Shown here piece after piece: positions 8,064 through 54,712 of a DNA stretch of 64,000 bases. A program made the position numbers and the translations under genes. The notes beneath the pieces are model-generated. The model made no database searches. It was not told the origin of the DNA and worked only from the letters and a program-made list of their open reading frames with translations. The DNA lies in the NCBI RefSeq assembly GCF_000473085.1, contig NZ_AXBA01000013.1, positions 1 to 64,000 of the forward strand. The letters run 5' to 3'. Position 1 is the first letter of the stretch; each line of letters begins with the position of its first letter. The stretch is from Azorhizobium doebereinerae UFLA1-100 (lineage in GTDB: Bacteria > Pseudomonadota > Alphaproteobacteria > Rhizobiales > Xanthobacteraceae).

Positions 8064-8366
8064 TCAGTGGATGTCGAACAGTGCCGAGAAGCCGGAGATG
8101 TCGAAGACTTCCTGGATCTGGGGCTGAAGCGACTTCAGGCGCAGCTTGCGCTTGTGCGGGCTCATGGCCTTGCCCGCCACCAGCAGCGCACGCAGGCCGG
8201 AGGACGACACGTAATCCACCCCCGCCATGTCCACCACGATGGCGCCGTTGGAGGCCTTCACCGCCTCCAGCAGCTGGCCCTCGAACGGCTTGGCGTTGAG
8301 CGTGTCCAGCCGGCCGCTCACCTTGAGCACCGTGTCTTCGCCGCTCGCTTCGGTCTCGATCTGCAT
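8064..8366 (-). CDS. STAS-domain anti-sigma-factor antagonist (SpoIIAA/RsbV type)
   Basis: A 100-residue single STAS domain. The phosphorylation loop reads DYVSSSGLRALLVAGK (around residues 51-66). In SpoIIAA/RsbV a Ser here is phosphorylated by the partner kinase and dephosphorylated by a SpoIIE-type phosphatase. It is the distal gene of a minus-strand run: RsbW-type kinase (10554-10111), Na+/Pi transporter, then this gene after a 55-nt gap. A RsbU-type phosphatase lies at 18017-20062. Together these supply all three partner-switching roles. Confidence 0.9.
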   Translation of the reverse strand: MQIETEASGEDTVLKVSGRLDTLNAKPFEGQLLEAVKASNGAIVVDMAGVDYVSSSGLRALLVAGKAMSPHKRKLRLKSLQPQIQEVFDISGFSALFDIH

Positions 8367-8421
8367 TCACACGTCCTCGCGCCTGCCGGGGTCGGGCGGC
8401 CGGCATTGCCGCGCCTGCGCC

Positions 8422-10086
8422 TCAACCACGGTCCTCGACAGCTTCCACCCGCCCGTTCTGCGCCGCAGCCGGAACGGACCACCCCTCCGGCGAATTATCC
8501 TCATTCGCCCGGGGGCGCAACGCCAAGGAGAGCCGCCGCACCAGCCAGAGCGCCCGTTCGAACAGGCTGGTGGCCCGCATCAGCGTGCGCACCTCGCTTC
8601 CGCCCGTGGCGCAGGAGGCGGCCAGGTCGCGGCGGATGCGGTCCAGAAGGTCGCTGCGGTCCCCGGTCAGGGCGTTGAGCACCTCAAGGTCGCCCTCGCC
8701 GGCCTCCTCCGGCACGGCGTCGGCCAGCACCAGCAGCACCGCGCGCAGCGATTCGGACAGGTTGAACACCAGCGGCGGCAGCGGATGGAAGGCGTCCACC
8801 ACCGCGCCGAACTCGTGCAGCGTCTCCTGCAACGCCCGCAGCAGGTCCACCTGGGCCTGCGCCCGCAGCGCGAGGTCGAGATCCTCGCGCGTCAGGCGCT
8901 GGTCGATCAGCTCGGTCAGGAAGCGGTCGGTCGCGGCGGCGATGGCCTCGGCGCCCTGCCAGGCCGCCAGCCGGGCCTTGGGCTCGTCGTGCGCGCGCTG
9001 GTCGAGGTCCGGCAGGATCGTCGGCAGGCAGACCACCAGACGGGCGGTCTCGCGGGCCACTAGGTCGAGCGCGGTGGGCGGATCGCTCACCGCCCGGTCA
9101 TGGATGAAATGCGGCCGCGAGAGCTTGTCCTCGCGGGTGGCCGGGCTGAAGCGGACGGCGATGGCCTCGCTCAGCCCGATCAGCGTCACCACCACCAGCG
9201 CCCCGCTGGCCTGGAGGGCGAAGAACACCACCGAGAGCGCGAAGGCCGGGTCCCGCCCGCTGCCGATGCGGCCGAGCATCACGTCGAGATTGAGGCCCGC
9301 CGCCATCACCGCCAGGGCCGCGCCGCCGACGATCAGGCAGCCCATCGCCTTGACCTGGATGGCGCTGACGCACAATTGCCGCCCCGCCCCCCGCATGTCG
9401 CCGGCCGAGATCAGCGTGGCGAGGCCGGAGCCGAGATTGGCGCCGACCACCAGGAACATGCCGTCCCCCAGCCCCAGCACCTGCGCCTGCACCACCGCCA
9501 CGGCGAGGATGGTGGGCGTGGAGGCGGACTGGGTGATGAGCGCCAGCAGGCAGCCCAGGAAGAAGCCGCGCGTCGGGGTGAGCAGTTCCCCCACCACATG
9601 GGCCGCCTGCGAGAGGTCGAGCCCGGCGGGGGCGGACTTGATGAAGTCGAGCCCGAGGAACAGCAAAGCGAGCCCGAGCAGCACGCCCATCCACTCGCGC
9701 CAGCCGGTGCGCTTGTCCATGCGCAGGTGGAAGGCCAGGCCGACGAGCGCCACCAGATAGAGCACCGCCACCTTGAGGTTGACGCTGGCGATGAAGACGA
9801 GGGCCGAGGTGCCCACATTGGCGCCGGCCACCACCGGAATGGCGTCCCGGGTGGCGAACACGCCGCCGCGCACCAGATTGGCGCAGATCAGCGTCACCGC
9901 GTTGCTCGACTGGGTGATGGCCCCGGCGACCATGCCGCACAGCACCCCGGCCGGGCGCGAGCCGGTGGCCATGCGCAGCAGCCGGCGCACCCGCCGGCCC
10001 ATGACCTGCTGCAGGTGCGCGCCCATGAGCTTCAGCCCGACGAAAAGCAGCCCGAGGCCGGCGAGAAGCTGCGCAGCAATCAACAC
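8422..10086 (-). CDS. Na+/phosphate cotransporter family protein (NptA-like) with PhoU-like tail
   Basis: 554 residues starting at GTG (10084-10086). The membrane half (about 1-300) holds two inverted repeats, each with the Q-S motif of NaPi-II type symporters: GAITQSSNAVTL and LITQSASTPTI. The cytoplasmic half (about 330-530) is helical and resembles the PhoU-like domain often attached to these proteins. It lies 24 nt after the RsbW-type kinase gene and 55 nt before the STAS gene, so it is embedded inside a signalling operon. This suggests that phosphate uptake, or a related anion flux, is tied to partner switching, which is inference. Confidence 0.88.
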   Translation of the reverse strand: MLIAAQLLAGLGLLFVGLKLMGAHLQQVMGRRVRRLLRMATGSRPAGVLCGMVAGAITQSSNAVTLICANLVRGGVFATRDAIPVVAGANVGTSALVFIASVNLKVAVLYLVALVGLAFHLRMDKRTGWREWMGVLLGLALLFLGLDFIKSAPAGLDLSQAAHVVGELLTPTRGFFLGCLLALITQSASTPTILAVAVVQAQVLGLGDGMFLVVGANLGSGLATLISAGDMRGAGRQLCVSAIQVKAMGCLIVGGAALAVMAAGLNLDVMLGRIGSGRDPAFALSVVFFALQASGALVVVTLIGLSEAIAVRFSPATREDKLSRPHFIHDRAVSDPPTALDLVARETARLVVCLPTILPDLDQRAHDEPKARLAAWQGAEAIAAATDRFLTELIDQRLTREDLDLALRAQAQVDLLRALQETLHEFGAVVDAFHPLPPLVFNLSESLRAVLLVLADAVPEEAGEGDLEVLNALTGDRSDLLDRIRRDLAASCATGGSEVRTLMRATSLFERALWLVRRLSLALRPRANEDNSPEGWSVPAAAQNGRVEAVEDRG

Positions 10087-10110
10087 GGTGAGGGTCGCTC
10101 CGGCCTGCGA

Positions 10111-10554
10111 TCAGGCTGCCTTGTGGGGGTCGGCGATGAGGGTGAAACGATTTTCATCCCCCGCCCGCTCATAGTCCAGGCCGGCGAGGAAGTGCCGCAT
10201 GAGCTGGACGCCATGTCCGCCGATACGGGCTTCCTCCACCGAGGCCGCAACTTCCGGCTCCCCCACCGAGAGCGGATCAAAAGCCAAGCCATTGTCGATG
10301 ATGCGCAGCGCCACCCGGTCGGCCGGCAGGCGGAAATAATCCACCCGGATGCGCGGCGGATGCGCCAGGCCCTCGAAGCCGTAGGAGATGACGTTGGCGA
10401 GCGCCTCCTCCAGGCTGAGCTCCAGCCCGAAGCGCATGCGCTCCGGCCAGCCGTCCTGCTCGGCCAGTTCGTTGAGCCAGTCCGAAACGCGCGGCAGGTC
10501 GTCGATGCTGGGCGCCACGTCCAGGCTCGCGGCGGCTCTGTCAAATCCGCTCAT
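10111..10554 (-). CDS. RsbW/SpoIIAB-type serine kinase (HATPase_c_2 anti-sigma factor)
   Basis: 147 residues with the GHKL ATP-binding fold in its short RsbW form. The N box is SLEEALANVISYG, with the Glu and Asn needed for Mg-ATP. The G1 box is RIIDNGLAFDP and the G2-like loop is ARIGGHGVQLMRHF, followed by an ENRFTLI strand. In the family this kinase phosphorylates its STAS antagonist or binds a sigma factor or other target. The STAS partner is two genes downstream at 8064-8366. No sigma factor gene is adjacent, so the output target is unknown. Confidence 0.9.
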   Translation of the reverse strand: MSGFDRAAASLDVAPSIDDLPRVSDWLNELAEQDGWPERMRFGLELSLEEALANVISYGFEGLAHPPRIRVDYFRLPADRVALRIIDNGLAFDPLSVGEPEVAASVEEARIGGHGVQLMRHFLAGLDYERAGDENRFTLIADPHKAA

Positions 10555-10697
10555 GCGCGCGCCTCACGCGGGTCCGCGCGGCGCGATCCGGCGCACCATG
10601 ACGTCGTCAGCATCCGCGCCTCTCCAGCCCCACACCCGCCCCGCACATCGAGACCGCGCGCCTCCCGGCGCACCGGCCCGTCCTTCGTGGACGTCAA

Positions 10698-10725
10698 GCT
10701 ATATCGATCCCCCGGCGCCGGGCAA
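10698..10725 (-). promoter_or_regulatory. Candidate promoter for the kinase-NptA-STAS segment
   Basis: Read on the minus strand: TTGCCC (10725-10720), a 16-nt spacer, then TATAGC (10703-10698), about 150 nt before the kinase ATG. It lies in the 241-bp gap after alr, the only sizeable gap in this minus-strand gene run. The match to sigma-70 consensus is partial. Confidence 0.35.
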
Positions 10726-10795
10726 TGCACCCCGGGGGGCGGCGCCTGCCGCCACGCACCGGAAAATGCCCGCGCGCCCGACGACCCGGCCCGCC

Positions 10796-11974
10796 TCATG
10801 CCGCGCCGCCCGCCGCCTGCCCCCGTCCGGCCCGCAGCCCCGCCGGCTCCGCCCGCTCCGGCGCCTCGTGATAGATGCGCCTGGCGCGATGCCCGGCCGC
10901 CACCATCACCGCATTGGGCGCGATACCGGCGGCGGCGGCGAGCTGGTCCACCGGCAGGCGGGGGCCGAACAGTTCCACCCGCGCGCCGGGCACCGCCACG
11001 CCTTCGGGCAGATGGCTCACGTCCACCGTCATCAGGCTCATGGCGACGCCGCCGACCACCGGCACCAGATGCCCGCCGATCCCGGCATGGGCCTGGTGGC
11101 GGAAGGAAAACGGCACGCCGTCGCCATAGCCGGCGGCCACATGGGCGAGGCGGCAGGCGTGGGCGGTGCGATAGGTGCCGCCATAGCCCACCTCGACGCC
11201 CGCCGGCACGTCCATGACGCGCAGGATGGGCGCCGACAGGCGGGCGGCCAGCTCGATGGGCTGCGGCCGGGCGGGCGTGGTCTCCACCCCGTAGATGGCG
11301 CTGCCGACGCGGGCATGGCTGGCGTGCCGCGCCGCCGGGCCGAACACCCCGGCGGAGGCGCAGAAGCTCAGGGTCGCCTCGGGCAGCGCCCCGGTCCAGG
11401 CCCGGAACCGGCGCCATTGCTGGGCGTTGCGGCGCGCGACGGGATCGGCGAACCGCGCCAGGTGGGTCACATAGGCGGCGATGCGCAGGCCGGAGAAGGC
11501 CGCCGGCGTGTCGCGCAGGCGCCGCACGTCGGCCAGCGAGAGGCCGAGGCGGGTCAGGCCGGTGTCGAACTGGATGGCGATGTCGAACGCCCCGCGCTGC
11601 GCCGCCTCGGCGCGGGCCACGGGCAGTTCGGCGGCATCGATCAGCACCGGCACCAGCCGGTGGGCGCGGAACTCGCCCGCCGGCGCGCCGGCAAGGCCGT
11701 GCAGCACGAAGACCCGCGCCTGCGGCGCCAGCGCCCGCACCGCCACGCCTTCCTCGAAGCTCACCACCCAGAAGTCGCGGCAGCCCAGCGACGCGAGCAG
11801 CGGCACGATGCGCGCCGCGCCGAAGCCATAGGCGTCCTGCTTGACCACCGCGCCCACCGTGGGGCCGGTGAAGACATCCCGAACCGTCTGCCAATTGCGC
11901 CGGATCGCGCCGAGATCGATCTCCAGGATCGCCTGGTCGCTGCTCGTCCCGCTGGCTCTATCCGCCGGACACAT
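10796..11974 (-). CDS. alr: Alanine racemase (PLP-dependent)
   Basis: 392 residues. The PLP lysine is in GAVVKQDAYGFGA near the N-terminus; most Alr proteins read VKA(N/D)AYGHG, so Lys-Gln-Asp and Phe are small deviations. The second-domain tyrosine region VGYGGTYRTA is present. The first ATG is at 11974, with a TTG at 11980 as alternative. It overlaps the end of the GNAT gene by 17 nt, so it is translated with it. Being encoded in a sensor/transport operon rather than near cell-wall genes suggests a special role, for example a D-amino acid used as signal or nutrient (inference). Confidence 0.9.
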   Translation of the reverse strand: MCPADRASGTSSDQAILEIDLGAIRRNWQTVRDVFTGPTVGAVVKQDAYGFGAARIVPLLASLGCRDFWVVSFEEGVAVRALAPQARVFVLHGLAGAPAGEFRAHRLVPVLIDAAELPVARAEAAQRGAFDIAIQFDTGLTRLGLSLADVRRLRDTPAAFSGLRIAAYVTHLARFADPVARRNAQQWRRFRAWTGALPEATLSFCASAGVFGPAARHASHARVGSAIYGVETTPARPQPIELAARLSAPILRVMDVPAGVEVGYGGTYRTAHACRLAHVAAGYGDGVPFSFRHQAHAGIGGHLVPVVGGVAMSLMTVDVSHLPEGVAVPGARVELFGPRLPVDQLAAAAGIAPNAVMVAAGHRARRIYHEAPERAEPAGLRAGRGQAAGGAA

Positions 11975-12650
11975 AGACAATCGCCGCCCCTTCCGCCCCC
12001 TGCCGCGCGGCCACGCCGCGCCAGCCGGCCTTCAGCAGCGCCACCTGTCCCTCGGCATCGGCGGGCGACATCAGCCGGGTGTCCCGTGGCGTGATGTCGG
12101 TTCCATCGCGAACCATCAGATAGCGCAGATGCCCCCCGTAATAAGGCACCAGCGCGCGAATGGCGAAGCCTTCCGACAGCAGATTGATCCAGCTCGCCGG
12201 ATTTCCGGGGGCGGAGGTGGCGAACAGGATGTCGCCCGGCTGCGCCAGGCGGACGCGGGCGGCGATCAGGGCGCGCTGAAGCTTCTGCCCGCGATGGGCC
12301 GGGGCCACCGAGGCGCCGGCGAGCTTGGCCACCGGCGCGTCGGCCGGGGCACCGATATGGGGGCGCGGATCGTCATAGGCCGGCAGCACGCGCTGGAGCA
12401 CGCCGTAGGCGACCAGCTCGGGCTCAGCGCCCGCCCGGTCCGCGCCATCCCCGTCCGCGAACACCCCGACCATCCGGCCGCGCCCGCCGAGGATGCCGGC
12501 GAAGAAATCCCGGGTCTCCGGCTTCACCACCTCGGGCCGGATGGCCTCGCCGATGGCCTGCCGGTGCAGCGCGTAGACCGCGTCGAGGTCCGGCGGGCCG
12601 AGCGCCCGCCAGGACAGCGCGTCCCCGGCGGCCGGGCCGTCGATGCTCAT
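11958..12650 (-). CDS. GNAT-family N-acetyltransferase
   Basis: 230 residues. The acetyl-CoA pyrophosphate loop is visible as ASVAPAHRGQKLQRALIAAR, corresponding to the V-x-P-x-x-R-G-x-x-x pattern of motif A. It is followed by a typical ATSAPGNPASWINLLSEGF segment, where a neighbour-of-substrate Asn and a late aromatic Tyr (VPYYGG) occur. The start overlaps the stop of the binding-protein gene as ATGA (12650-12647), indicating translational coupling. The substrate is unknown. Co-transcription with alr and a binding protein suggests an amino acid or related amine. Confidence 0.75.
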   Translation of the reverse strand: MSIDGPAAGDALSWRALGPPDLDAVYALHRQAIGEAIRPEVVKPETRDFFAGILGGRGRMVGVFADGDGADRAGAEPELVAYGVLQRVLPAYDDPRPHIGAPADAPVAKLAGASVAPAHRGQKLQRALIAARVRLAQPGDILFATSAPGNPASWINLLSEGFAIRALVPYYGGHLRYLMVRDGTDITPRDTRLMSPADAEGQVALLKAGWRGVAARQGAEGAAIVYVSGG

Positions 12651-13669
12651 CCCGTGACCAGCTCGGCGTAATTGAGCATGGCGATGGGCGGGTAGATGCC
12701 GAGCGACTTGGCGATACGCATGTTGATGATGAGCGAGAAGCGCTTCAGCGTCTCGATCGGGATCTTGCTCGCCGGGGTGCCGCGGGCGAGGATCTCCACC
12801 GCCTTGGTGCCGGCGAGCTGGCCGACGGAATAATAGCGGCTCACCAGCCCCACCAGCGCGCCGCCCTCGCGGATCGCCAGCTCGGCGGCGCCGAAGGTGG
12901 GCAGCCCGGCGGCCAGCGCCGCCGGCGTCACCCGGTCGTAGATCGTCCCGAGGAAGGTGTCGGGCAGCAGATAGAGCCAGTCCGCCTTGTCGGCGCGGAG
13001 CTGGGCGACCATGTCCTCCACGCCCTCGGCGGTGGGACGGCCGCTGGCGTCGTTCTTGAACGGGCGGGCCAGCACCTTGGCGCCCATGCCGTCGCAGAAG
13101 GCCTTCACCTCGCGGACGATGACGTCGGAATTCTGCTCGCTGGTGGAATAGAGGATGCCGACGGTGGAGAAGTCCATGAAGGACTGCATCGCCTTCATCT
13201 GCACGTCGGTGGGCACCACGTGCACCGCGCCGGTCACGTTGCGGCCGGGGGCGGCGAAGCTCGGGGCGATGCGCGCCTGCACCGGCGCGGCCACCAGGGC
13301 GAACACCACCGGGATGTCGCGGATGAACTTGGGGTCGGTCGAATCGAACGGTCCCGCCACCCCGAGGGTGAGCGGCGTGCCCCAAGTGTAGATGAGGTCC
13401 GGCTTCAGCGTGGCGAGGTCGGCGATCATCGACGGCAGGTTGGCGATGTCCCGCCGCGCGTCGCGCGAGATGATCTCGGTCTTCAGCCCGGCGGTGTCCA
13501 GCAGGTCGCGGAAGCCGCGCTCCACGTCGGTCTCGCCGCGGAAGGTGAGCATCAGGATCTTGTAGGTCTTGCCCGTGTCGGCGGACAGGCCGCGCGGCAG
13601 CGCCAGCGACGCGCCCGCGCCGACGCCGAGGGACAGAAGCGAACGACGATCCAGCATGGGCCTCCTCAT
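12647..13669 (-). CDS. ABC-type substrate-binding protein, TrpX-like (ABC_sub_bind family)
   Basis: 340 residues. The N-terminus MLDRRSLLSLGVGAGASLAL is a Tat-like twin-arginine signal with an A-rich core. The mature part has two alpha/beta lobes typical of periplasmic binding proteins of the TrpX/YufN-like group: YKILMLTFRGETDVERGF, PDLIYTWGTPLTLGV, TVGILYSTSEQNSD and an AELAIREGGALVGL segment. The start overlaps the MFS gene stop as ATGA (13669-13666). No ABC permease or ATPase gene is nearby, so the protein may serve as a ligand receptor for the neighbouring membrane sensors rather than for import (inference). Confidence 0.88.
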   Translation of the reverse strand: MRRPMLDRRSLLSLGVGAGASLALPRGLSADTGKTYKILMLTFRGETDVERGFRDLLDTAGLKTEIISRDARRDIANLPSMIADLATLKPDLIYTWGTPLTLGVAGPFDSTDPKFIRDIPVVFALVAAPVQARIAPSFAAPGRNVTGAVHVVPTDVQMKAMQSFMDFSTVGILYSTSEQNSDVIVREVKAFCDGMGAKVLARPFKNDASGRPTAEGVEDMVAQLRADKADWLYLLPDTFLGTIYDRVTPAALAAGLPTFGAAELAIREGGALVGLVSRYYSVGQLAGTKAVEILARGTPASKIPIETLKRFSLIINMRIAKSLGIYPPIAMLNYAELVTG

Positions 13670-15642
13670 GGCACCGAAGCCTCCTCGGGAGCGGCCGGCG
13701 ACCCGCGGTCGCGGCGCGCCGGCACGCGGCCGGACAGGATGAATGCCGCCGCGCCGAATACCACTAGGCCACCCACGGTCATCATGGAAGTTACGAATCC
13801 GACACTTCCCAAAAGGAAGCCGGCGGCGGCGGGGCCGACCGCATTGCCGCTGCGCTCCACCAGCCGGAACAGGCCGAGCACCCCGGCCGAATGGCCGCCC
13901 GGCACATGGCGGGCGCTGTCGGCGACCAGGGCGGACTGCGGCGCGATCGACATCGCCTGGCCGATGCCGAGCAGCGCCAGCACCAAAGCGAGGATCACCG
14001 GCGAGGTGCCGAAGGCCACCAGCAGCGCCCCCGCCCCGGCCAGCGTGCCGCCGGCGGCGACGAAGCCGGCGCGCGCCGACCAGCGGTCGGCCAGCGCCGC
14101 GAACAGCGGCACGCCGAGCACCATGATGACCGGGTAGATCATCTGCAGCCGGCCGACGGCGGCCGAGGAGAAGCCCTCGCGCTGGAGCTCCACCGGGATC
14201 AGGTAGAAGCACAGCGCGGCGAGGATGAACTTGGCCGGGAAGGCGCAGCCGAACAGCAGCGCGGCGAGGCGCGGCGCCTGGATGGCGGCCTTCAGGTCGG
14301 TGAGGCCGAGGCCGTGCGCGCCGCCGCGCCGCTGCGAGGCCGGCAGGCTCAGCCCGGCCAGCACCAGCGCCAGGGCGGCGAGGCCGCCGGAGAACAGGAA
14401 GGCGATGTTGCCGCCCAGCCGGTCGCCGATCACGCCGCCGATGGGCGGCCCGCACAGCGCCGCCACCATGATGGCGCGCACGAAGACCGCGAGCCCCTCG
14501 GCCCGCTCGGAGGGGGCGGAGCGATCCACCACGTGGCCCTGGGCGGAGACGAACACCAGAGCGTAGCCCACCGCCGACAGCACGCGGGCGCCGAGGAAGA
14601 CGAAATAGCTCCCCGTCAGCCCCGACAGCACGTAGCCGCAGGCGGCGAGCCCGGCGCCGAGCATGAAGCCGCCGCGCCGGCCGATGCGCTCGGACAGCGC
14701 GGCGAACGGCAATTGGCAGAGCGCCACCGCCGCCATGAAGGCGACGATGGGCAGGCTGATGGCCACGTCCGGGCTGATCGGCAGGCTGGCCGGGGCGATC
14801 GACTGCACGTAGCGCGGCAGGAACGGGCGGGTCAGTTCCTCCGCCAGCATGAACAGGAACAGCGCCGGGCGGACCACCGCCGCCGCCTGGTTGCCGACGC
14901 TGTGGACCGAGCCGAGCCCGGTCTTGGCCGCCACCGCGTCCAGCGTCGCCAGCGCCCGGGCATCGCCCCGCCGCTCGGCCTCGTCGCGGGCGAAGGCGTG
15001 GCGCGAGGCCAAGGCGTTCAGCTGCCGGTCGATGGGGGCGATGAGGCGGTCGCCGTCGGCGCCCTCATGCCGCACCAGCCGGCCGCGCGCCAGGTCGCGC
15101 ACCCGCGCCTCGACCCCGGCCAGCACGCTGACGCCGCGCGCGCCGACCACCAGGGCCACCAGTTCCAGCGCGATCAGCAGGGCGACGACGCCGATGAAGG
15201 CGACATCGACGAGCACCGCCGCCACCTGCTCGGAAATGATGCTCGGGTCGATGAAGATGACGATGTCGCCGAGGCTCGGCCCATCCTCCACCGCCACCGG
15301 GACGCGGACCTGCGGCCAGTCGGGCTGCTCGCGCTCGCCGGACTGGAACAGCACGGTGCCGCCCTGCGTCAGGCGGATCTCGGACAGTTCGCTGTTCTGG
15401 CTGCGCAGATCCTCGAAATAGGCGGGCACGCCGGCCAGCTTCTCCATCGGGATGCCGGCCTCCACCGCGGTCTCCACCAGCGCGGCGGCGGAGCGGCCGA
15501 CCGATTCGGCCTTGGCGACGATGGTCGGGACGATGGTGCGCACGGCGGCGCGCTGCGCGCCCCAGGCGATCATGCCGAGCGCGGCGCACAGGATGACGAT
15601 GATGGCGGCGGAGATGCCGCCGCGCAGGCCGATGCCGATCAC
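13666..15642 (-). CDS. Periplasmic-sensor domain fused to an MFS transporter
   Basis: 658 residues, far longer than the usual ~400 of MFS proteins. Residues 10-30 are a membrane helix. Residues 31-140 form a cache/PDC-like extracytoplasmic domain (GIPMEKLAGVPAYFEDLRSQ, then IRLTQGGTVLFQSGE). Residues 143-167 are a second helix and 168-240 a HAMP-like helical linker. From about 250 a complete 12-helix MFS permease follows, with motif A as LSERIGRRGGFMLG near 317-330. The GTG start (15642-15640) overlaps the stop of the upstream sensor gene as GTGA. The sensor part resembles the plus-strand sensor at 17199-18017. Such a design would let a periplasmic signal gate or report transport (inference). 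Confidence 0.85.
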   Translation of the reverse strand: MIGIGLRGGISAAIIVILCAALGMIAWGAQRAAVRTIVPTIVAKAESVGRSAAALVETAVEAGIPMEKLAGVPAYFEDLRSQNSELSEIRLTQGGTVLFQSGEREQPDWPQVRVPVAVEDGPSLGDIVIFIDPSIISEQVAAVLVDVAFIGVVALLIALELVALVVGARGVSVLAGVEARVRDLARGRLVRHEGADGDRLIAPIDRQLNALASRHAFARDEAERRGDARALATLDAVAAKTGLGSVHSVGNQAAAVVRPALFLFMLAEELTRPFLPRYVQSIAPASLPISPDVAISLPIVAFMAAVALCQLPFAALSERIGRRGGFMLGAGLAACGYVLSGLTGSYFVFLGARVLSAVGYALVFVSAQGHVVDRSAPSERAEGLAVFVRAIMVAALCGPPIGGVIGDRLGGNIAFLFSGGLAALALVLAGLSLPASQRRGGAHGLGLTDLKAAIQAPRLAALLFGCAFPAKFILAALCFYLIPVELQREGFSSAAVGRLQMIYPVIMVLGVPLFAALADRWSARAGFVAAGGTLAGAGALLVAFGTSPVILALVLALLGIGQAMSIAPQSALVADSARHVPGGHSAGVLGLFRLVERSGNAVGPAAAGFLLGSVGFVTSMMTVGGLVVFGAAAFILSGRVPARRDRGSPAAPEEASVP

Positions 15643-16304
15643 GGCCGCCCCCCCGCCGGGCTGGCGTCGCGCTTCAGCACGGCGGCATGGGCGGCGTCGA
15701 CGCTCGCCAGCGCGGCGCGGGCGGGCTCCGGCCAGGAGCCGGGGTCCGCCGCCCGCCGCAGCGAGCGCCTGAGGCTGGCGGCCAGCAGCAGGCCGACCGC
15801 GATGGTGGCGAGCGCCGCCGCCGCCAGGGTCGGGATGGCGATGAAGCGCAGGTCCGCGGCCAGCGCCTCGGCGCCGGCGGCCAGGATCACCGGGTCGTAA
15901 TGCACGATCACCCGGCCGATCCGCGCCTCCAGGTCGTTCTCCATCACCCGCGACACGCTGTCGGCGGGGTGCGCGGGTTCGTCACGCCCGGCGCGGTCCG
16001 GATCGCTGCTGAACAGCACGTGGCCGCGCTCGTCCGCCACGTCGATGGCGCGGATGGCGGTATCGATTCGCGCCTCCCGCCGCAGCAGGTCCGGCAGTGT
16101 CTGCTGCGCCGGCAGGGCGATGCCCAGGCCCGACGCCAGCTCCGCCGTGGCGCCGATTCGCTGCGCGGTGATGGCGAAGCGCGCCTCCACCGCGGCACGG
16201 TTGGCGTTGAGCAGGGTGGCGTAGGCGAAATAGGCGCCGAAGGCCACGCAGGCCGCGGCAATCATGGCGAACAGGGCGATCAGGACGGCAGTGGTACGGG
16301 TCAT
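15639..16304 (-). CDS. Membrane sensor-like protein without output domain (sensor A)
   Basis: 221 residues from ATG 16304; a GTG at 16331 is possible. Two membrane helices (about 5-28 and 150-172) flank an extracytoplasmic domain of about 120 residues. This domain contains GIALPAQQTLPDLLRREARI and AIDVADERGHVLFSSD, a pattern common in the sensor regions of histidine kinases and chemoreceptors. Only about 45 polar residues follow the second helix, so there is no kinase, phosphatase or cyclase domain. It is the first gene of the minus-strand operon, overlapping the sensor-MFS gene by 4 nt. Its domain is most like sensor B on the other strand. Confidence 0.7.
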   Translation of the reverse strand: MTRTTAVLIALFAMIAAACVAFGAYFAYATLLNANRAAVEARFAITAQRIGATAELASGLGIALPAQQTLPDLLRREARIDTAIRAIDVADERGHVLFSSDPDRAGRDEPAHPADSVSRVMENDLEARIGRVIVHYDPVILAAGAEALAADLRFIAIPTLAAAALATIAVGLLLAASLRRSLRRAADPGSWPEPARAALASVDAAHAAVLKRDASPAGGRP

Positions 16305-16465
16305 TTCGGCGCGGCTCGGGGGGCAGGTCACTGTGTCAGGCGACGCATGCGATGGAAAGCGGTTTGGTGGGGAGTGGCTTTTTTGACCCGGTTCCGGTTT
16401 TTGCTCTGGTTTGGCGACGAGCGTGCGGCTAACGTCCCGCCGGCCTGCCTATTACCGTCTGCTTC
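16305..16465. promoter_or_regulatory. Divergent promoter region between the two sensor operons
   Basis: 161 bp between sensor A and sensor B. It contains a T-rich patch with TTGACC at 16383-16388 on the plus strand as a possible -35 element, but a convincing -10 element was not found. No GGAAC-N16/17-CGTT (EcfG-type) element is seen on either strand. Confidence 0.45.
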
Positions 16466-17212
16466 ATGACTTTTGTCGGTCGACTCGCATTATTCGTTGC
16501 CGCAGCTCTGCTCGCGACCCTGCTGGTCGTGGCGACGGGGGCCTTTTTCGCGAGTCAAAAAGTCACCGCCGACATCGAGCGGGCCCGGGTATCCCACCTG
16601 CTGGGCAGCCTGCGCAGCGCCACCGAGGCCAACCTCGCCATCGGCCTGGCGCTCGACCAGGTGTCCTCGCTCCAGGCGCGCATCGAGCGCGAGACGGCGG
16701 CGGACGCGGCGGTGCAGGCCATCGACGTGTTCAACGCCCAGGGCCGCTCGGTCTACAGCACCGATCGCGGCGCGGTGGGCGAGGAGGTGCCGCCCGCCTG
16801 GACCACCCAGATGCGCGACGACGGCATCTGGACCGTCCCCGGCCGCGGCGAGACGGTCTACGTCACCCGCTTCGACAACGACCTGGGCTTTGCCGGCGGC
16901 ATCGCCGTGTCGGTCTCCGACGACGCCCGCGCCAACCGCAACGAGCGCATGCTGGTGGACCTCGCCTGGCGCACGCTGGCCGTCGGAGGCGCCGGCATCC
17001 TCGCCGCCGGCCTCCTGGCCTTCGCCTTCGGCGCGCTGATGACCCGGCCGTTCGGCAACGCGGCGCGCATCCTGCGCGGCGAGGCGGCGTCCGCCCCCGC
17101 CGGCCGCGGCCTCGAACAGCTGGCGCAGCAGACCCGGCGCACCTGGACCCGCAGCGAGGAGCGCATCGACGCCGGCCTCAAGCAGCTGGAGGCGCTCGAT
17201 GACGGGATCTGA
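16466..17212 (+). CDS. Membrane sensor-like protein without output domain (sensor B)
   Basis: 248 residues with membrane helices near 5-27 and 172-192 and an extracytoplasmic domain between them. The domain carries ANLAIGLALDQVSSLQARIE and VQAIDVFNAQGRSVYSTD, which aligns by eye with sensor A (AIRAIDVADERGHVLFSSD). After the second helix there is only a short basic/helical tail (about 55 residues). The last 14 nt overlap the start of sensor C. It is the first gene of the plus-strand operon ending in the phosphatase, so it probably forms a complex with it (inference). Confidence 0.7.
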   Translation: MTFVGRLALFVAAALLATLLVVATGAFFASQKVTADIERARVSHLLGSLRSATEANLAIGLALDQVSSLQARIERETAADAAVQAIDVFNAQGRSVYSTDRGAVGEEVPPAWTTQMRDDGIWTVPGRGETVYVTRFDNDLGFAGGIAVSVSDDARANRNERMLVDLAWRTLAVGGAGILAAGLLAFAFGALMTRPFGNAARILRGEAASAPAGRGLEQLAQQTRRTWTRSEERIDAGLKQLEALDDGI

Positions 17213-18017
17213 CGAGGCCCTGCCGCGCGGCCGCGCCCGGCTGCTCACCGGCCTGTTCGCCTTCCTGCTCACGCTGCTGGTCGGCGGCGTCGGCGGCGCC
17301 GTGCTGGTGTCCGGCTTCAAGGCCAGCGTCGAGGAGACCGCCCGGCGCGACGTCACCGTGATCGGCGGCTCGCTCGCCCGCGCCCTCGCCATGCAGTTCG
17401 AGAAGGCGGCGCGGTTCGGCATCCCGCTCAAGCTCATTCCCGGCGTCGAGGGCTATCTCGCCCAGACCCTGAACCAGACGCCGGGCATCGCCCGCATCGT
17501 GGTGCGCGGCCCGGACGGGCGCGAGGTGCGCAGCGCCATCGGGCCGCTGGCCGGCACCGACACGGTGTCCGCGCCGATCGCCGTGGATGGCCTCGCCCTC
17601 GGGCAGGTGGACGTGACCACCAGCCCGCTCGCCTTCAGCGGCACCTTCGCCGCCCTGACCCTCCAGGTGGCCGGCGCCGTGCTGGCGTTCGCCGCCGTGG
17701 CCGGCATCGCCTCCGGGCTGGTGGCCGGCGGCGCCCTGGAACGGCGGCGGCAGCGCCTCGCCGCCGCCATGGCGCACAATGTGGCCGGCGAGTTGGACGG
17801 AGGGCCGCAATCGGCCGCCATCGGCCGCTCGCCGGTGGCGCAGGCGTTCGAGGCTTTGTCCCGCGGCGCCCGCCGGGTCGGCGACAAATGGGCCGCCTTC
17901 CAGGCCTATGCGGAAGAATTGCTGGCGGTTGATTTCGACGGCCGGCTGCGGCCGGAGGTGGAACGCATCCGGCGCGAGGCGCTGCCGCGCGGCAGCCAGA
18001 GCGAGCGGGGCAGCTGA
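17199..18017 (+). CDS. Membrane sensor-like protein without output domain (sensor C)
   Basis: 272 residues, with membrane helices near 15-38 and 148-175. The extracytoplasmic part contains FGIPLKLIPGVEGYLAQTL and ARIVVRGPDGREV, followed by APIAVDGLALGQVDV. This matches the N-terminal sensor of the MFS fusion (GIPMEKLAGVPAYFEDL, then VPVAVEDGPSLGDIVI) more than sensors A or B. The cytoplasmic tail of about 95 residues is helical with no recognisable enzyme domain. It overlaps sensor B by 14 nt and shares TGATG (18015-18019) with the phosphatase gene. Confidence 0.7.
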   Translation: MTGSDEALPRGRARLLTGLFAFLLTLLVGGVGGAVLVSGFKASVEETARRDVTVIGGSLARALAMQFEKAARFGIPLKLIPGVEGYLAQTLNQTPGIARIVVRGPDGREVRSAIGPLAGTDTVSAPIAVDGLALGQVDVTTSPLAFSGTFAALTLQVAGAVLAFAAVAGIASGLVAGGALERRRQRLAAAMAHNVAGELDGGPQSAAIGRSPVAQAFEALSRGARRVGDKWAAFQAYAEELLAVDFDGRLRPEVERIRREALPRGSQSERGS

Positions 18018-20062
18018 TGCTTCTGCGCACCCGCATCACCCTTCTCGTCGCCGCCGGCTTCGTCGTGCTGGTGGGCTGCTTCCTTGGCCTCCTCGTGCTG
18101 CGCGACCGCATGGAGGAGGACCGCCTGTCCAATGTGGTGATCCTCGGCCAGGGCGCGCTGTGGCGCGAGATCGTCACCGTCCAGTCCGCCACCCTGGAAA
18201 AGAGCCTCGACACCGTCGCCGGCTCGGCCAGCCTGATGGCCTCCCTGCGCAGCACCGACCGCGGCGCGACGCTGGCGGCGCTCAACGGGCTGGACATCTT
18301 CTCCGACACCACCCCGCCGATCTATGAGGTGGTCGCCGAGGACCGCGAGGTGCTGGTGGCCAACGGCACGCCGGGGCGCGGGCTGCTGGACGCGGACAGC
18401 ATCGACCGGGTATTCGCCGGGCAGAATGTCTCCGGCCTGCGCCAGGTCTCGGCCAACCAGATCCTGGTGGTGGCGGCGCGGCGGGTCACCTTCTCCGACG
18501 GCGAGCAGGCCATGCTGGTGCTCGGCCGCGACGCCGGGGCGGCGGTGCGCCGCTTCGCCGCCAGCATCGAGGCCACCACCACCCTGATCACCCTGCGCGG
18601 CGTGCTCGCCGCCACCACCAATGCGGAGGCCTGGCGCAAGGCCGGCCTCGTCATCTCGCCGCGCCAGCCGCTGCGCGAGACGGTGGCGCTGGACGGCCGC
18701 ATCTTCAGCGTCACCAGCATCCCGGTTCCCGATGTCAGCGGCGGCACCGTGGGCGCGCTGGTGAGCATGGTGGACAATACCGAGGGCATCACCAACGCCC
18801 AGGGCATCCGCCGCGCCGGCATCGCCGTCAGCCTCGGGCTGTCGCTCATCGGCATCATCGGCCTCAACATGTTCCTGTGGTACAGCTTCCGGCCGCTGGA
18901 ACGGGCCATCGACGTGCTCCAGGCGCTGTCGCGCGGCGACACCTCGGTGACGCTGGAGCACCAGGGCAAGGACGAGATCGGCCGCATCGCCGCCGCCGTG
19001 GTGGCGTTCCGGGCCAATGCCCAGGCGCTGGCCGAGACCCGCCGCCAGCGCGAGCGGGTGCGCCGCCGCCAGGAAGTGGTGATCTCCGCCGAATTGCAGG
19101 CCCTGGCCGACGCCATCGACCCCACCGACCGCGAGGAAGTGCTGGCGCTGCTGCGCTCCGACACCGATACCGGCGAGGACGAGCTGCGCCGCGTCGCCCG
19201 CGTGCTGCACGATCTGTCGCGGCGCATCGTCGAGCAGCACACCCGGCTGTCCGCCATGGTGGTGGAACTGCGCGAGGCCCTGATCACCAAGACCAAGCTG
19301 GCCGGTCTCCAGCAGGAGCTGGAGATCGCCGCGCAGGTGCAGCTCGCCATCCTGCCGAAGGAATTCCCGCCCAATCCGCGCATCGCCGTGCACGGCCACA
19401 TGACCCCGGCCCGCGAGGTCGGCGGCGATTTCTACGACTACTTCCTGATCGACGACCAGACGCTCGGCTTCGTGGTCGCCGACGTGTCCGGCAAGGGCGT
19501 GCCGGCGGCGCTGTTCATGGCCATCTCGCGCACCCTGCTGCGCTCGACCGCGCTGTTCGAGCGCTCGCCGTCCAGCAGCGTCCGCCGCCTCAACGACCTG
19601 CTGGCGCTGGAAAACGAGCAGATGCTGTTCGTGACCCTGTTCTACGGCGTCATCGACCTGGAGAGCGGCAAGGTCTCCTACGTCAACGCCGGCCACAATT
19701 TGCCGTACAAGATCACCCAGGCCAACGCCGTCTCCATCGTGCCCTCCACCCGCGGCATGGCGGTGGCGGTGATGGAGGGCTTCGTCTACCAGGAAGGCGA
19801 GCTGACCCTGTCGCCGGGCGACACGCTGTTCCTCTACACCGACGGCGTGACCGAGGCGTTCGACGTCGACGGCAACGCCTATGGCGACGACCGGCTGGCG
19901 CACCTGCTGACGGAGGACGCCGCCCACTGGCCGGTGCCGGAGACGCCGCAGCGCGTGCTGGCCTCGGTGCGCGCCTTCGAGCGCGGCGCGCCGCAGGCGG
20001 ACGACATCACCTGCCTGACCCTGCGCTATTTCGGCGGCAGCGCCCGGCGCCACAGCCTGTAG
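18017..20062 (+). CDS. Sensor-HAMP-SpoIIE (RsbU-type) serine phosphatase
   Basis: 681 residues. The first membrane helix is at about 7-28, followed by a large extracytoplasmic sensor (30-265), a second helix (267-288), HAMP (289-342, SFRPLERAIDV... KDEIGRIAAA) and a helical linker (343-440). A PP2C-type phosphatase of the SpoIIE/RsbU group follows (about 455-680). All metal-binding motifs are intact: VGGDFYDYF (near 468-476), VADVSGKGVPAAL (487-499), LFLYTDGVTEAFD and ADDITCLTL. Such enzymes dephosphorylate STAS antagonists; the likely substrate is the STAS protein at 8064-8366. The start shares TGATG with sensor C. Confidence 0.95.
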   Translation: MLLRTRITLLVAAGFVVLVGCFLGLLVLRDRMEEDRLSNVVILGQGALWREIVTVQSATLEKSLDTVAGSASLMASLRSTDRGATLAALNGLDIFSDTTPPIYEVVAEDREVLVANGTPGRGLLDADSIDRVFAGQNVSGLRQVSANQILVVAARRVTFSDGEQAMLVLGRDAGAAVRRFAASIEATTTLITLRGVLAATTNAEAWRKAGLVISPRQPLRETVALDGRIFSVTSIPVPDVSGGTVGALVSMVDNTEGITNAQGIRRAGIAVSLGLSLIGIIGLNMFLWYSFRPLERAIDVLQALSRGDTSVTLEHQGKDEIGRIAAAVVAFRANAQALAETRRQRERVRRRQEVVISAELQALADAIDPTDREEVLALLRSDTDTGEDELRRVARVLHDLSRRIVEQHTRLSAMVVELREALITKTKLAGLQQELEIAAQVQLAILPKEFPPNPRIAVHGHMTPAREVGGDFYDYFLIDDQTLGFVVADVSGKGVPAALFMAISRTLLRSTALFERSPSSSVRRLNDLLALENEQMLFVTLFYGVIDLESGKVSYVNAGHNLPYKITQANAVSIVPSTRGMAVAVMEGFVYQEGELTLSPGDTLFLYTDGVTEAFDVDGNAYGDDRLAHLLTEDAAHWPVPETPQRVLASVRAFERGAPQADDITCLTLRYFGGSARRHSL

Positions 20063-20220
20063 GCCGGCCGGCGGCAACCACCACATTACCGTCTGTCCTG
20101 CGGCGCCGGCGGCGGGCCATGTGCGTGGAGCATTGCTCCCGCCGTTTCCGCGCGGCGCGAACCAGGGTACTAACCCTCAAGCCGGCCCGCGAATACGAGA
20201 CCGGCGTCCGGAGAAGCGCC

Positions 20221-21432
20221 GTGTCCGTAGCCGCAGCCCGCCTGCCCGCCCCTTCGCGCGAGTTCGCCACCATCTCCGCCGTGGGCACGGCCCATTTCAC
20301 CAGCCATCTGCTCCAGCTCTCCTTCGCGCCCTTGTTCATCGCCATGCGCGCGGACCTCGGCGTGTCCTTCACCGAGCTGGGCCTGCTGCTCTCGGTCTTC
20401 TATCTCGCCTCCGGCTCCGGCCAGGTGCTGGCGGGCATCCTGGTGGACCGCTTCGGCGCCCACCGGCTGCTGCTGGGCGGCATGGCGCTGCACGGCGGCG
20501 CCATCGCCGCCGTGGGGCTGGCGCCGACCTATTGGCTGATGCTGCCGCTGGTGCTGCTGGCCGGGCTCGGCAATGCGGTCTACCACCCGGCGGACCTCTC
20601 CATCCTCAGCCACCGCATCTCGCCGGAGCGGCTCGGCCGGGCGTTCGCCGCCCATGTGATCGCCGGCAACTTCGGCTTCGCAGCCTCGCCCCTGGTCTCC
20701 GGCGCGCTGGCGCTGGCGTTCGGCTGGCGGGTGGCGCTCACCACCATGGGCCTCGCCGCGCTGGGGCTGACCCTGGCGCTGGTCCTGGTCCGCCCGGTGC
20801 TGCACAGCCCCACCAGCCACGAGCACGCCAAGGCGGGCGGCGAGACCGCCCCGCCGCTCTCCTTCACCCGCGTGCTGATGATGCCCGTGGTGTTGCTGGC
20901 CTTCCTCTATTTCTTCCTGTCCTCGCTGGCGCTGGTGGGGATCCAGAACTTCAGCATCGCGGCGTTGCAGGAGGGCTTCCTGTTCTCGGCCGGCTTCGCC
21001 ACGCTGACCATCACCGCCTACCAGCTCGCCACCGCCGCCGGCGTGCTGGCCGGCGGGGTGCTGGCCGACCGCGCCACCCACCACCACCGCATCGCCATGA
21101 GCGGGCTCGCCGCCGCCGCCGTCTGCGCGGCGCTGATCCCGCTCGGCGCGCCGCCGGCCTTCGTCACCGCCGGGCTGCTGATCGGCATCGGCCTCGCCAT
21201 CGGGCTGTCCATGCCCTCGCGCGACGTGCTGGTGCGCCGCGCGGCGCCCAAGGGGGCGACGGGCAAGGTCTTCGGCGTGGTCTATTCGGGCTTCGACATC
21301 GGCTCGCTGGGGGCCCCGCTCGTCTATGGCGCGCTGATGGACCACCATTTCTCGCGGATGGTGTTCCTGGCCGCGGCGGTGCCGCTCTGCCTCGCCATCT
21401 TCACCGCGCTCGGCGTCAAGCGGGCCTACTGA
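20221..21432 (+). CDS. MFS transporter (fosmidomycin-resistance/Fsr-like)
   Basis: 403 residues from GTG 20221, with ggaga (20210-20214) at 6-nt spacing. Twelve hydrophobic segments are seen. The motif A equivalent is GILVDRFGAHRLLLGG after helix 2, and the GNAVYHPADLSILS segment is typical of the Fsr-like MFS subfamily of drug or small-molecule exporters. It begins 158 nt after the phosphatase gene and has its own ribosome site, so it may be co-transcribed or independent. The substrate is unknown. Confidence 0.88.
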   Translation: MSVAAARLPAPSREFATISAVGTAHFTSHLLQLSFAPLFIAMRADLGVSFTELGLLLSVFYLASGSGQVLAGILVDRFGAHRLLLGGMALHGGAIAAVGLAPTYWLMLPLVLLAGLGNAVYHPADLSILSHRISPERLGRAFAAHVIAGNFGFAASPLVSGALALAFGWRVALTTMGLAALGLTLALVLVRPVLHSPTSHEHAKAGGETAPPLSFTRVLMMPVVLLAFLYFFLSSLALVGIQNFSIAALQEGFLFSAGFATLTITAYQLATAAGVLAGGVLADRATHHHRIAMSGLAAAAVCAALIPLGAPPAFVTAGLLIGIGLAIGLSMPSRDVLVRRAAPKGATGKVFGVVYSGFDIGSLGAPLVYGALMDHHFSRMVFLAAAVPLCLAIFTALGVKRAY

Positions 21433-21481
21433 GGCCCGTGGGCCGGCCCGGCGGGAGCACCGCCGGGCGGAGGCCGGGCGT

Positions 21482-22939
21482 TCACTCCGCCTTGGGCAGC
21501 AGCACCTTGCCGGGGTTGAGCAGGCCGGCGGGGTCGAGCGCCGCCTTCAGCGCGGCCATCACGTCGAGGGCCACCTCGTCCTTGTAGTGGACCAGTTCCT
21601 CGCGCTTCAGGATGCCGATGCCGTGCTCGGCGGAGATCGAGCCGCCGTAGGACGCCACGAGGTCGTGGACGATGCGGTTGAAGCCTTCCCAGCTCTCCAG
21701 ATAGGCCTGCTTGTCCATGCCCACGGGCTGGCTGAGGTTGAAGTGCACGTTGCCGTCGCCGATATGGCCGAAGGCGCAGACCCGCAGGTCCGGCATGTGC
21801 GCCTCGCAGGCGGCGGTGGCCTTCTCGACGAACTCGGCCACCTTGGATACCGGCACCGAGACGTCGTGCTTGATGGAGCCGCCCTCGAACTTCTGCGCCT
21901 CGGACAGGTCCTCGCGCAGCTTCCACAAGGCGAGCGACTGGCTCTCGCTGGCGGCGATCACCGCATCCTCCACCTCGCCCGCCTCGAAGGCTTCGCCGAG
22001 AACCGCCTCCACCATGGCGGCGAGGTCGTCGTCCTGGCGGGTGGAGGTCAGCTCGGCCAGGGCATAGAAGGCGTGGCGGCCCTGGATCGCCCGCACCGCG
22101 CCGGGCATGTGGGCGAGCACCGTCTCCATGCCGAAGTCGGGCAGGAACTCGAAGCCGGTCAGCGTGTCGCCCGCCACCGCGCGCAGGCGGCGGAACAGCG
22201 CCAGCACCTGGTGCACATCGGCGACCCCGACCAGCGCGGTGGCGCGCTGGCGCGGCTTGGGGAACAGGCGCAGCACGGCGGCGGTGATGATGCCGAGCGT
22301 GCCCTCCGAACCGACGAACAGGTTCTTCAGGTCGTAGCCGGTATTGTCCTTGCGCAGGCGCGACAGGCCGTTCCACACCCGCCCGTCCGCCAGTACCACT
22401 TCCAGGCCGAGGGCGAGGTCGCGGGTGTTGCCGTAGCGCAGCACGGCGGTGCCGCCGGCATTGGTGGCGAGGTTGCCGCCGATCTGGCAGGTGCCTTCCG
22501 AGGCGATGGAGAGCGGGAACAGGCAGTCCGCCGCCGCCGCCGCCTGCTGGATCTGGTGCAGGGTGCAGCCGGCCTCGGCGGTGAGCGTCAAATCGGTGGC
22601 GTCCAGCGCGCGCACCTTGTTGAGGCGGCCGAGCGAGAGCAGCAGCGCGCCGAACGGCACCTGCCCGCCCACGAGGCCGGTGTTGCCGCCCTGCGGCACG
22701 ATCGGGATGCCCGCCTCGGCGCAGGCCTTCACCACGAAGGCCACCTCCTCGGTGGAGCCGGGCCGCACCACGGCGGGCGTGGTGCCGCGGAACAGGCCGC
22801 GCTGCTCCACGAGATAGCCGTCCATGTCGGACGGCGCGGTCAGGACATAAGCCGGGCCGATGCGCTGGGCGATGCGCTCCAGGGCGCTCGCGAGACGGTC
22901 GGCGGGCAGGAGGATGGGGCGGGGGGCTGTGCTCGACAT
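21482..22939 (-). CDS. FAD-linked oxidase (D-lactate/2-hydroxyglutarate/glycolate dehydrogenase-like, GlcD family)
   Basis: 485 residues from ATG 22939. The FAD-binding PCMH-type region is near 50-230, with VPQGGNTGLVGGQVP and the GTCQIGGNLATNAGGTAVLR segment that cradles FAD. A FAD-linked oxidase C-terminal domain holds HIGDGNVHFNLSQP and AEHGIGILKREEL, where the family has its metal- and substrate-binding His residues. These enzymes oxidise 2-hydroxy acids and pass electrons to quinone or cytochrome c. No glcE/glcF partners are adjacent, which favours a single-subunit D-lactate or D-2-hydroxyglutarate dehydrogenase. It lies 58 nt after sfsA on the same strand. Confidence 0.9.
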   Translation of the reverse strand: MSSTAPRPILLPADRLASALERIAQRIGPAYVLTAPSDMDGYLVEQRGLFRGTTPAVVRPGSTEEVAFVVKACAEAGIPIVPQGGNTGLVGGQVPFGALLLSLGRLNKVRALDATDLTLTAEAGCTLHQIQQAAAAADCLFPLSIASEGTCQIGGNLATNAGGTAVLRYGNTRDLALGLEVVLADGRVWNGLSRLRKDNTGYDLKNLFVGSEGTLGIITAAVLRLFPKPRQRATALVGVADVHQVLALFRRLRAVAGDTLTGFEFLPDFGMETVLAHMPGAVRAIQGRHAFYALAELTSTRQDDDLAAMVEAVLGEAFEAGEVEDAVIAASESQSLALWKLREDLSEAQKFEGGSIKHDVSVPVSKVAEFVEKATAACEAHMPDLRVCAFGHIGDGNVHFNLSQPVGMDKQAYLESWEGFNRIVHDLVASYGGSISAEHGIGILKREELVHYKDEVALDVMAALKAALDPAGLLNPGKVLLPKAE

Positions 22940-22997
22940 GGGGCGGAAAGTGCCCCAGAGCCGGGCGGCGGGCAAGCGGCTCCAACGCTGTTCGCAG

Positions 22998-23711
22998 TCA
23001 GCCCAGCATGGGGATGGCCCCCGCCACCGCGATCCCCTCCGCGTCGATGCGGCAGACGAGGCCGATGGCCTCCACCCCCGCCGCGCGGGCGAGATCGAAG
23101 GCGCGGCCATAAACCGGGTCGAGGTCGCGGGCGAGGCGGATCTCGCGCGCCGAGGCGATCTGGCTGAGATAGACCATCACCGCCCGGTGTCCGGCGCGCG
23201 CCTCGGCGGCGAGTTCGGCCAGATGCTTGGCCCCGCGCGCGGTGGCGCAATCGGGAAACTCGGCCATGCCGGGCCGGCGCATGAGATGCACGTTCTTCAC
23301 CTCGACGAAGCACGGCGGGCGCCCCTCGCCTTCCAGCAGCAGGTCGATGCGGCTGTTCACCCCATATTTCACCTCGCGCCGCAGGCGGTCATAGCCGGCC
23401 AGCTCCGGCACCTGTCCGGCGGCGATGGCCTCGGCCACCAAGGCGTTGGGATGCATGGTGTTGACGCCCACCAGCTCGGGCCCGGCGCCGAAATCGGCCT
23501 CCACCAGCTCCCAGCCGTAGGGCAGCTTCAGCCCCCGCCCCGCCTTGGGCGCCAGCCAGACCCGCGCGCCGGGCGCCATCAGCCCCAGCATGGCGCCGGA
23601 ATTGGCCACGTGGACGGTGACCTCGGACCCGTCCGCCAGCACCACGTCGGCCAGGAAGCGCTTGTAGCGGCGCACCAGGGTGGCGGGGACGAGGGGTTCG
23701 GGGAAGCGCAT
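22998..23711 (-). CDS. sfsA: SfsA family protein (sugar fermentation stimulation homologue)
   Basis: 237 residues, the normal family length, starting [20 protein letters not shown]. Family hallmarks are visible: the OB-fold N-terminal part with [12 protein letters not shown], then a nuclease-like core [31 protein letters not shown] and [16 protein letters not shown], where D, E and K are placed as in PD-(D/E)XK enzymes. SfsA is a nucleic-acid-binding protein with a poorly understood role. It is in a minus-strand run with the secreted protein upstream and the FAD oxidase downstream. Confidence 0.93.
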
Positions 23712-54596: not shown

Positions 54597-54712
54597 GGCG
54601 GCCTCCTTATCTCGTGGTCCTCCGCCCAAGCGACCACATGCGCGGCCGCATGACGCCGACCGCAACCTCGGAATATAGAGGTGATAACGCCGTTGGGATA
54701 GGTGGGGTCCCC

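Follow-up and report, generated by a model that had tools for sequence, protein, structure and literature searches.

A cluster of eleven genes at positions 8064-20062 of the window, the 64,000-nucleotide stretch of the nitrogen-fixing bacterium Azorhizobium doebereinerae UFLA1-100 analysed here (contig NZ_AXBA01000013.1, positions 1 to 64,000), very probably encodes one signalling system with an output other than a sigma factor. The cluster brings together an RsbU-type phosphatase, an RsbW-like switch kinase and a STAS-domain antagonist with three membrane sensor proteins (S1, S2 and S3), a fusion of a sensor to an MFS transporter domain, an orphan periplasmic binding protein (SBP), a GNAT-like acyltransferase, an alanine-racemase-family enzyme (Alr) and a member of the Na+/Pi cotransporter family (NptA). 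The observed basis for a single system is this gene content, together with residue conservation, co-inheritance, the paralogy of the sensors and gene fusions in relatives. All eleven genes and their overlaps, as listed in an earlier note on this DNA, proved exact in the sequence and in domain searches. The same note had not recognised the combined architecture as a described one and, likewise, no published description of it was found in the open-licence literature searched, although this is not proof of absence.

Conservation of the cluster

The co-occurrence of the genes, proposed in the earlier note as a check, was followed through 397 genomes of the order, 19 of which carried an RsbU orthologue including the N-terminal sensor (here called full-length). 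Sensor genes adjoined the full-length RsbU orthologue in all 19 genomes, and RsbW lay within approximately 12 kb of it in 15 of the 19. Adjacency in 19 of 19 cases is more than chance, and the cluster is conserved as one unit. SpoIIE proteins of the same order that lack a matching N-terminal sensor (for example in L110, L111 and L117) served as a negative control; their loci held RsbW and STAS but no sensors, MFS fusion or binding protein. Two relatives carry the genes as one co-directional run, in the order STAS-RsbW-S-MFSf-SBP-GNAT-RsbU in L116 and RsbW-STAS-S-MFSf-SBP-S-MFSf-RsbU in L142, where S denotes a small sensor and MFSf a sensor-MFS fusion. The locus is also held by a genome of the same genus (G002), and class- and phylum-wide searches found the cluster in other alphaproteobacterial orders and outside the class.

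The set of ten genes originally put forward for joint occurrence was thus upheld in part: the sensors, GNAT, the binding protein and the switch form a unit, and Alr and NptA are not conserved members. The GNAT gene (11958..12650, minus strand) matched PF00583 only weakly (E 0.051, below the Pfam cut-off), but an iterated hidden Markov model (HMM) recovered it in nearly all clusters with E values of 1e-59 to 1e-90, and it is therefore a conserved cluster member despite its Pfam score. Alr (10796..11974, minus strand; PF01168/PF00842) occurs in some clusters only and is an optional member. A role for it as the sole housekeeping racemase was rejected, as a second alr gene is present in the genome (G000:C39).

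Two sets of matches were set aside during these searches. Apparent RsbU fusions of 940-1600 aa (L086, L087 and L090-L092) were due to out-of-frame, arginine-rich read-through 5' of the true start MLLRT, and the Azospirillum plasmid matches that were checked were MFS-domain relatives only, without the cluster. In a metagenome-assembled genome RsbU is broken by a frame change (L033:6325-8282, minus strand), possibly an assembly error.

Partner-switching module

RsbU (18017..20062, plus strand) consists of two transmembrane (TM) segments, a large periplasmic sensor, a HAMP domain (PF00672) and a SpoIIE/PP2C domain (PF07228, E 8e-50). RsbW (10111..10554, minus strand) is a HATPase_c_2 protein (PF13581, E 1.1e-15), and the RsbV-like STAS protein (8064..8366, minus strand) matched PF01740 with E 1.1e-17 and TIGR00377 above cut-off, and contains a putative phospho-acceptor serine in the motif VSSSG. 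When aligned with their relatives, the PP2C aspartates of RsbU (the D and DD motif columns) were at least 90% conserved in 28 sequences, the N-box E/N and GGxG of RsbW were conserved in 29 sequences, and the serine column of STAS was conserved in 27. Judged by these residues, the three proteins are predicted to constitute an Rsb-type partner-switching module that is complete and has intact sites, as had been claimed from the single locus. The best NCBIfam match of RsbU was SiaA (NF038263), with 72 bits where the cut-off is 700, so that RsbU falls outside the SiaA equivalog; the nearest solved sequence in the PDB was the serine phosphatase 6k4e. No convincing sequence-level PDB match was obtained for RsbW.

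Sensor family

An HMM iterated from S1 picked up both S2 and S3 as well as the N-terminal part of each MFS fusion, giving four sensors per locus. In a tree of 120 sensor domains, 60 of type 1 (small sensors such as S1 and S2) separated from 60 of type 2 (MFS-fused) with a support of 100/100, and both types were divided into parallel A and B clades, which indicates that the sensor set was inherited together. S1 (15639..16331, minus strand) fell into clade A1, the sensor-MFS fusion MFSfA (13666..15642, minus strand; a type-2 sensor plus a full MFS domain, PF07690, E 3.9e-44) into A2, S2 (16466..17212, plus strand) into B1 and S3 (17199..18017, plus strand) into B2. From these sequence relationships, S1, S2, S3 and the N-terminus of the MFS fusion are one paralogous Cache-sensor family, laid out as two divergent pairs, each of a small sensor and a sensor-MFS protein.

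The B2 clade, in which S3 is nested, has 23 rows and a support of 95/93, and most of its members from other families are fusions of approximately 550-630 aa. S3 is thus the sensor part of a second sensor-MFS fusion (MFSfB), from which the MFS part has been lost in the window's family. The MFS part of the B copy is divergent even where present, scoring 21 bits with Pfam MFS_1 or remaining undetected, versus 129 bits for the A copy. Consequently, of the three sensors without output domains postulated in the earlier note, S1 and S2 are indeed small sensors of this kind, whereas S3 is a truncated sensor-MFS fusion.

Hydropathy analysis of S1 indicated two TM segments flanking a periplasmic Cache-like domain, with a weak match to sCache_3_2. 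S2 likewise has two TM segments, and its AlphaFold model (pLDDT 71) shows a Cache fold, so that a Cache/PAS-like domain lies outside the cytoplasm between them; the model aligned with WalK (4ywz) with a VIA-align Z of 16.0 and a root mean square deviation of 2.2 over 134 residues, and with KinD, CitA and DcuS with Z of 13-15. At the sequence level neither S1 nor S2 had a convincing PDB match.

Fusions in relatives bear on how the sensors may operate. A type-1 and a type-2 sensor share a single open reading frame (ORF) in L141 (860 aa), L140 (975 aa) and L148 (810 aa), suggesting that the two sensors of a pair act together, and in L137 a type-2 sensor is joined in frame to RsbU. Members of the type-1 Cache family are fused to hybrid histidine kinases in L144, L146 and L147, and in the first two of these a PF04392-like binding protein is encoded directly upstream. 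The RsbU-type N-terminal sensor-HAMP was also found on chemoreceptor-like proteins (L124, L130 and L133-L136); it is therefore a mobile input domain and alone not diagnostic of the cluster.

The binding protein of the window (12647..13669, minus strand; PF04392, E 5.7e-28) has a twin-arginine-like signal. Its nearest NCBIfam family is TrpX, below cut-off, and its solved relatives are 6hni and 3lft. Domain searches revealed neither an ABC permease nor an ABC ATPase among the eleven cluster proteins, which as a set do not make up an ABC importer.

Output of the cluster

Linked candidate outputs were compared in complete, divergent four-sensor clusters with a PP2C phosphatase, of which six belonged to the window's family and 16 did not (15 from the order, and L121 from another order). 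A class III nucleotide cyclase (PF00211) was linked to all 16 clusters outside the family and to none of the six within it. Conversely, NptA (8422..10086, minus strand in the window; PF02690, E 2.4e-38, with a long C-terminal extension) lies between RsbW and STAS in 6/6 clusters of the family and is absent from the others (0/16). Five genomes (L093-L096 and L121) encode the cyclase and RsbW as a fusion, with the HMM matches in one ORF in every case, as illustrated by PF00211 plus PF13581 in L093. In L122 and L123, at the same position of the cluster, the RsbU-type sensor-HAMP is joined to a cyclase and not to PP2C. In a genus-level group of five loci (L098:10996-13137, minus strand; L099; L100:7787-9046, minus strand; L101; L102), an RsbW-like domain is attached C-terminally to a membrane protein resembling a permease, and this kinase fusion adjoins a binding-protein/permease-like gene, RsbU and STAS; the permease-like assignment was made by eye, as the membrane domain matched no Pfam permease model.

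A transporter had been considered as the output from the outset. The embedding of NptA in all six family members makes this plausible and suggests NptA as the candidate. The commonest linked output among relatives is the class III cyclase, which, like the type VI secretion genes around some relatives' clusters, is not visible from the window by itself. In L080, L118 and L142, three settings of other kinds, NptA is likewise a neighbour of RsbW/STAS. In L118 and L080 the NptA-RsbW-STAS genes accompany a response-regulator-type SpoIIE and a hybrid histidine kinase-like gene, and represent a different partner-switching system.

Domain searches found no cyclase gene in the window's cluster, and hence no linked diguanylate cyclase of the SiaD kind, and no orthologue of the relatives' PAS-cyclase was found in the six family genomes. 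The only PF00211 match in the window's genome was a HAMP-cyclase-like ORF, unlinked to the cluster and situated beside a mechanosensitive-channel-like gene, which makes it unlikely as a linked output. A sigma factor gene was recognised in none of the clusters examined, in accord with the earlier note, which had seen none at this locus. In the whole genome, TIGR02980, representing SigB/F/G-family sigma factors, gave three matches, none above cut-off, and the one in the window was RpoH. This rpoH-type sigma-32 gene (53694-55049, minus strand; TIGR02392 and NF005143 above cut-off) is located approximately 34 kb from the cluster.

Proposed mechanism and alternative explanations

We propose that the orphan PF04392 binding protein probably captures an extracytoplasmic ligand, which would then be read by the array of homologous Cache sensors, S1 being paired with the sensor-MFS protein and S2 with S3. 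The array would set the activity of the HAMP-SpoIIE protein RsbU, presumably through physical contact. Active RsbU would dephosphorylate STAS, which in its unphosphorylated form would capture RsbW; otherwise, RsbW would phosphorylate STAS and hold a non-sigma effector. In most relatives this effector would be the class III cyclase, and in the window's family NptA, having taken the place of the cyclase link, would be the most likely direct target. That the chain holds throughout, from the ligand via the binding protein, sensors, RsbU, STAS and RsbW to an effector that is likely NptA, we regard as an evenly balanced proposition. We infer its first and last steps, and the middle ones rest on knowledge of the protein families and on the conserved residues.

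Several points weigh against this chain. The sensors may belong to a transport-sensing set of their own, with nothing but the operon in common. Confidence in the S2 model is moderate, and that of the MFS fusion reached a pLDDT of 44, so only its N-terminal alpha/beta sensor segment (approximately residues 41-140) was used. In genomes G229 and G206 the RsbW-STAS pair (L119 and L120) is on another contig than RsbU. Four sensors occur with neither cyclase nor NptA in L131, whose gene order differs, and in L104, which is truncated. NptA adjoins the kinase gene without being fused to it. Moreover, the change from cyclase to NptA probably was one evolutionary event and is statistically weak; it therefore supports NptA as the target but does not establish it.

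The alternative that survives best, although we consider it unlikely, retains the same array and switch and places the output elsewhere, in a type VI secretion system (T6SS) or another unlinked target, with NptA as a passenger or feedback component. The triad of small sensor, sensor-MFS fusion and binding protein, or its version with RsbU, was found in or beside T6SS genes at eight loci in seven families (L088, L097, L116, L127, L112/L138, L139, L141 and L145), and in L141 it is inserted in the T6SS operon itself, between clpV and tssJKLM. The chance of a 20-kb segment meeting a T6SS cluster is about 1%, a rough estimate made without tool computation. In the window's family, tssB is present in each of the six genomes that have the cluster, but on another contig or far away (contig C2 in the window's genome, with the cluster on C3), so the T6SS is unlinked in this family. 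Furthermore, five genomes with the full cluster gave no tssB match (G079, G115, G204, G028 and G088), and the T6SS therefore cannot be the universal output. In L139 and L145 the triad is followed by a vgrG-like gene, immediately after it by a DUF6931 gene (PF22011), and then by further T6SS genes.

A canonical switch of the kind known from the SigB system of Bacillus, with RsbW binding a sigma factor whose gene lies elsewhere, is improbable. Most characterised RsbW proteins bind sigma factors and rpoH is present in the same window; against this, no sigma factor was recognised in the clusters examined, no SigB/F/G-family member scored above cut-off in the genome, RsbW of relatives is fused to cyclases or permease-like domains, and in Rhodobacter capsulatus an interaction of RbaW with a sigma factor was not found (PMC3999984). 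Slightly less probable still is that two unrelated systems are neighbours here, a pair of operons for sensing and transport and a partner-switching module distinct from them, for which the unlinked RsbW-STAS of G229 and G206 and a 241-nt gap between Alr and RsbW could be adduced, but which is already largely refuted by the neighbourhood data, namely the association of RsbW (15/19) and the sensors (19/19) with RsbU, the single co-directional runs of L116 and L142, and the sensor-RsbU fusion of L137.

Extending the proposed single system beyond this locus, one could see in it a new class of receptor, in which Cache sensors work in pairs, each pair including one sensor with a fused MFS domain (a transceptor or pseudo-transporter), an orphan binding protein loads them, and the outputs to which they connect are interchangeable. 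These outputs would be partner switching towards a class III cyclase, a Na/Pi cotransporter or type VI secretion, or else a cyclase directly. We advance this idea tentatively, as a possibility that falls somewhat short of probable; if true, partner switching would here be a modular control of second messengers and transport and not of transcription.

Relation to known systems

The closest known plan is SiaABCD of Pseudomonas aeruginosa, in which a two-TM HAMP PP2C phosphatase, a kinase and an antagonist act on a nucleotide cyclase and not on a sigma factor (PMC7647112). The cluster shares this phosphatase/kinase/antagonist plan and, very probably, the non-sigma output, and SiaA is the nearest named family of its RsbU. 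However, the cyclases of its relatives belong to class III and can be fused to the kinase, whereas that of Sia is a diguanylate cyclase, and none is linked in the window's family; in addition, nothing that would correspond to the four Cache sensors, the MFS domains and the binding protein is described for Sia (PMC7647112). With RsbU/RsbV/RsbW-SigB of Bacillus the cluster has in common the three kinds of protein and their conserved catalytic and phospho-site residues. It differs by having no sigma factor, stressosome or RsbX, by its membrane-bound Cache/HAMP phosphatase and by the fusion of the relatives' kinase to other effectors. Bordetella BtrU/BtrV/BtrW, a partner switch acting on type III secretion (PMC8256260), and Rhodobacter RbaU/V/W are similar in being Gram-negative switches without a known sigma target (PMC8256260, PMC3999984), but no array of multiple sensors, MFS domains and a binding protein has been described for them (PMC8256260, PMC3999984), and the relatives of the cluster border type VI, not type III, genes. 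The cluster works like SiaABCD and Btr/Rba, yet it lacks the features of the SiaA equivalog and of SiaD. Binding-protein-dependent Cache histidine kinases are a further parallel, as L144 and L146 pair the same binding-protein and sensor families with a hybrid kinase, but the cluster has its sensors divided over separate proteins, and PP2C partner switching as its output.

What Gram-negative partner switches act on when they have no sigma factor is an open question, for which the kinase-cyclase and kinase-permease-like fusions and the exchange of PP2C for a cyclase name candidates directly. The pairs of Cache/MFS sensors point to a type of receptor that uses transporter-like domains in sensing, and their recurrent siting in T6SS loci suggests an unrecognised layer of control over type VI secretion.

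Gene layout of the locus

On the left (minus) strand, the sequence shows a GTGA overlap between S1 and the MFS fusion, ATGA overlaps between the MFS fusion and the binding protein and between the latter and GNAT, and an overlap of 17 nt between GNAT and Alr; on the right (plus) strand, S2 and S3 overlap by 14 nt and S3 and RsbU are joined by TGATG. The earlier note took these overlaps to mean that the genes are expressed as sets. The RsbW-NptA-STAS block is separated from Alr by 241 nt and may therefore form a transcription unit of its own, the third at this locus, and not belong to the left operon, with which it shares the strand. The 241-nt gap showed no Rfam RNA, promoter match or unusual RNA fold, and few terminator-like sites above the level of shuffled sequence.

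The segment downstream of RsbU, at 20121-23110, holds a further MFS gene and a gene resembling FAD-linked oxidases; both also adjoin the cluster in members of the family and not in distant clusters. Two sugar-type permease-like genes are located at approximately 5.3-7.2 kb, outside the cluster.

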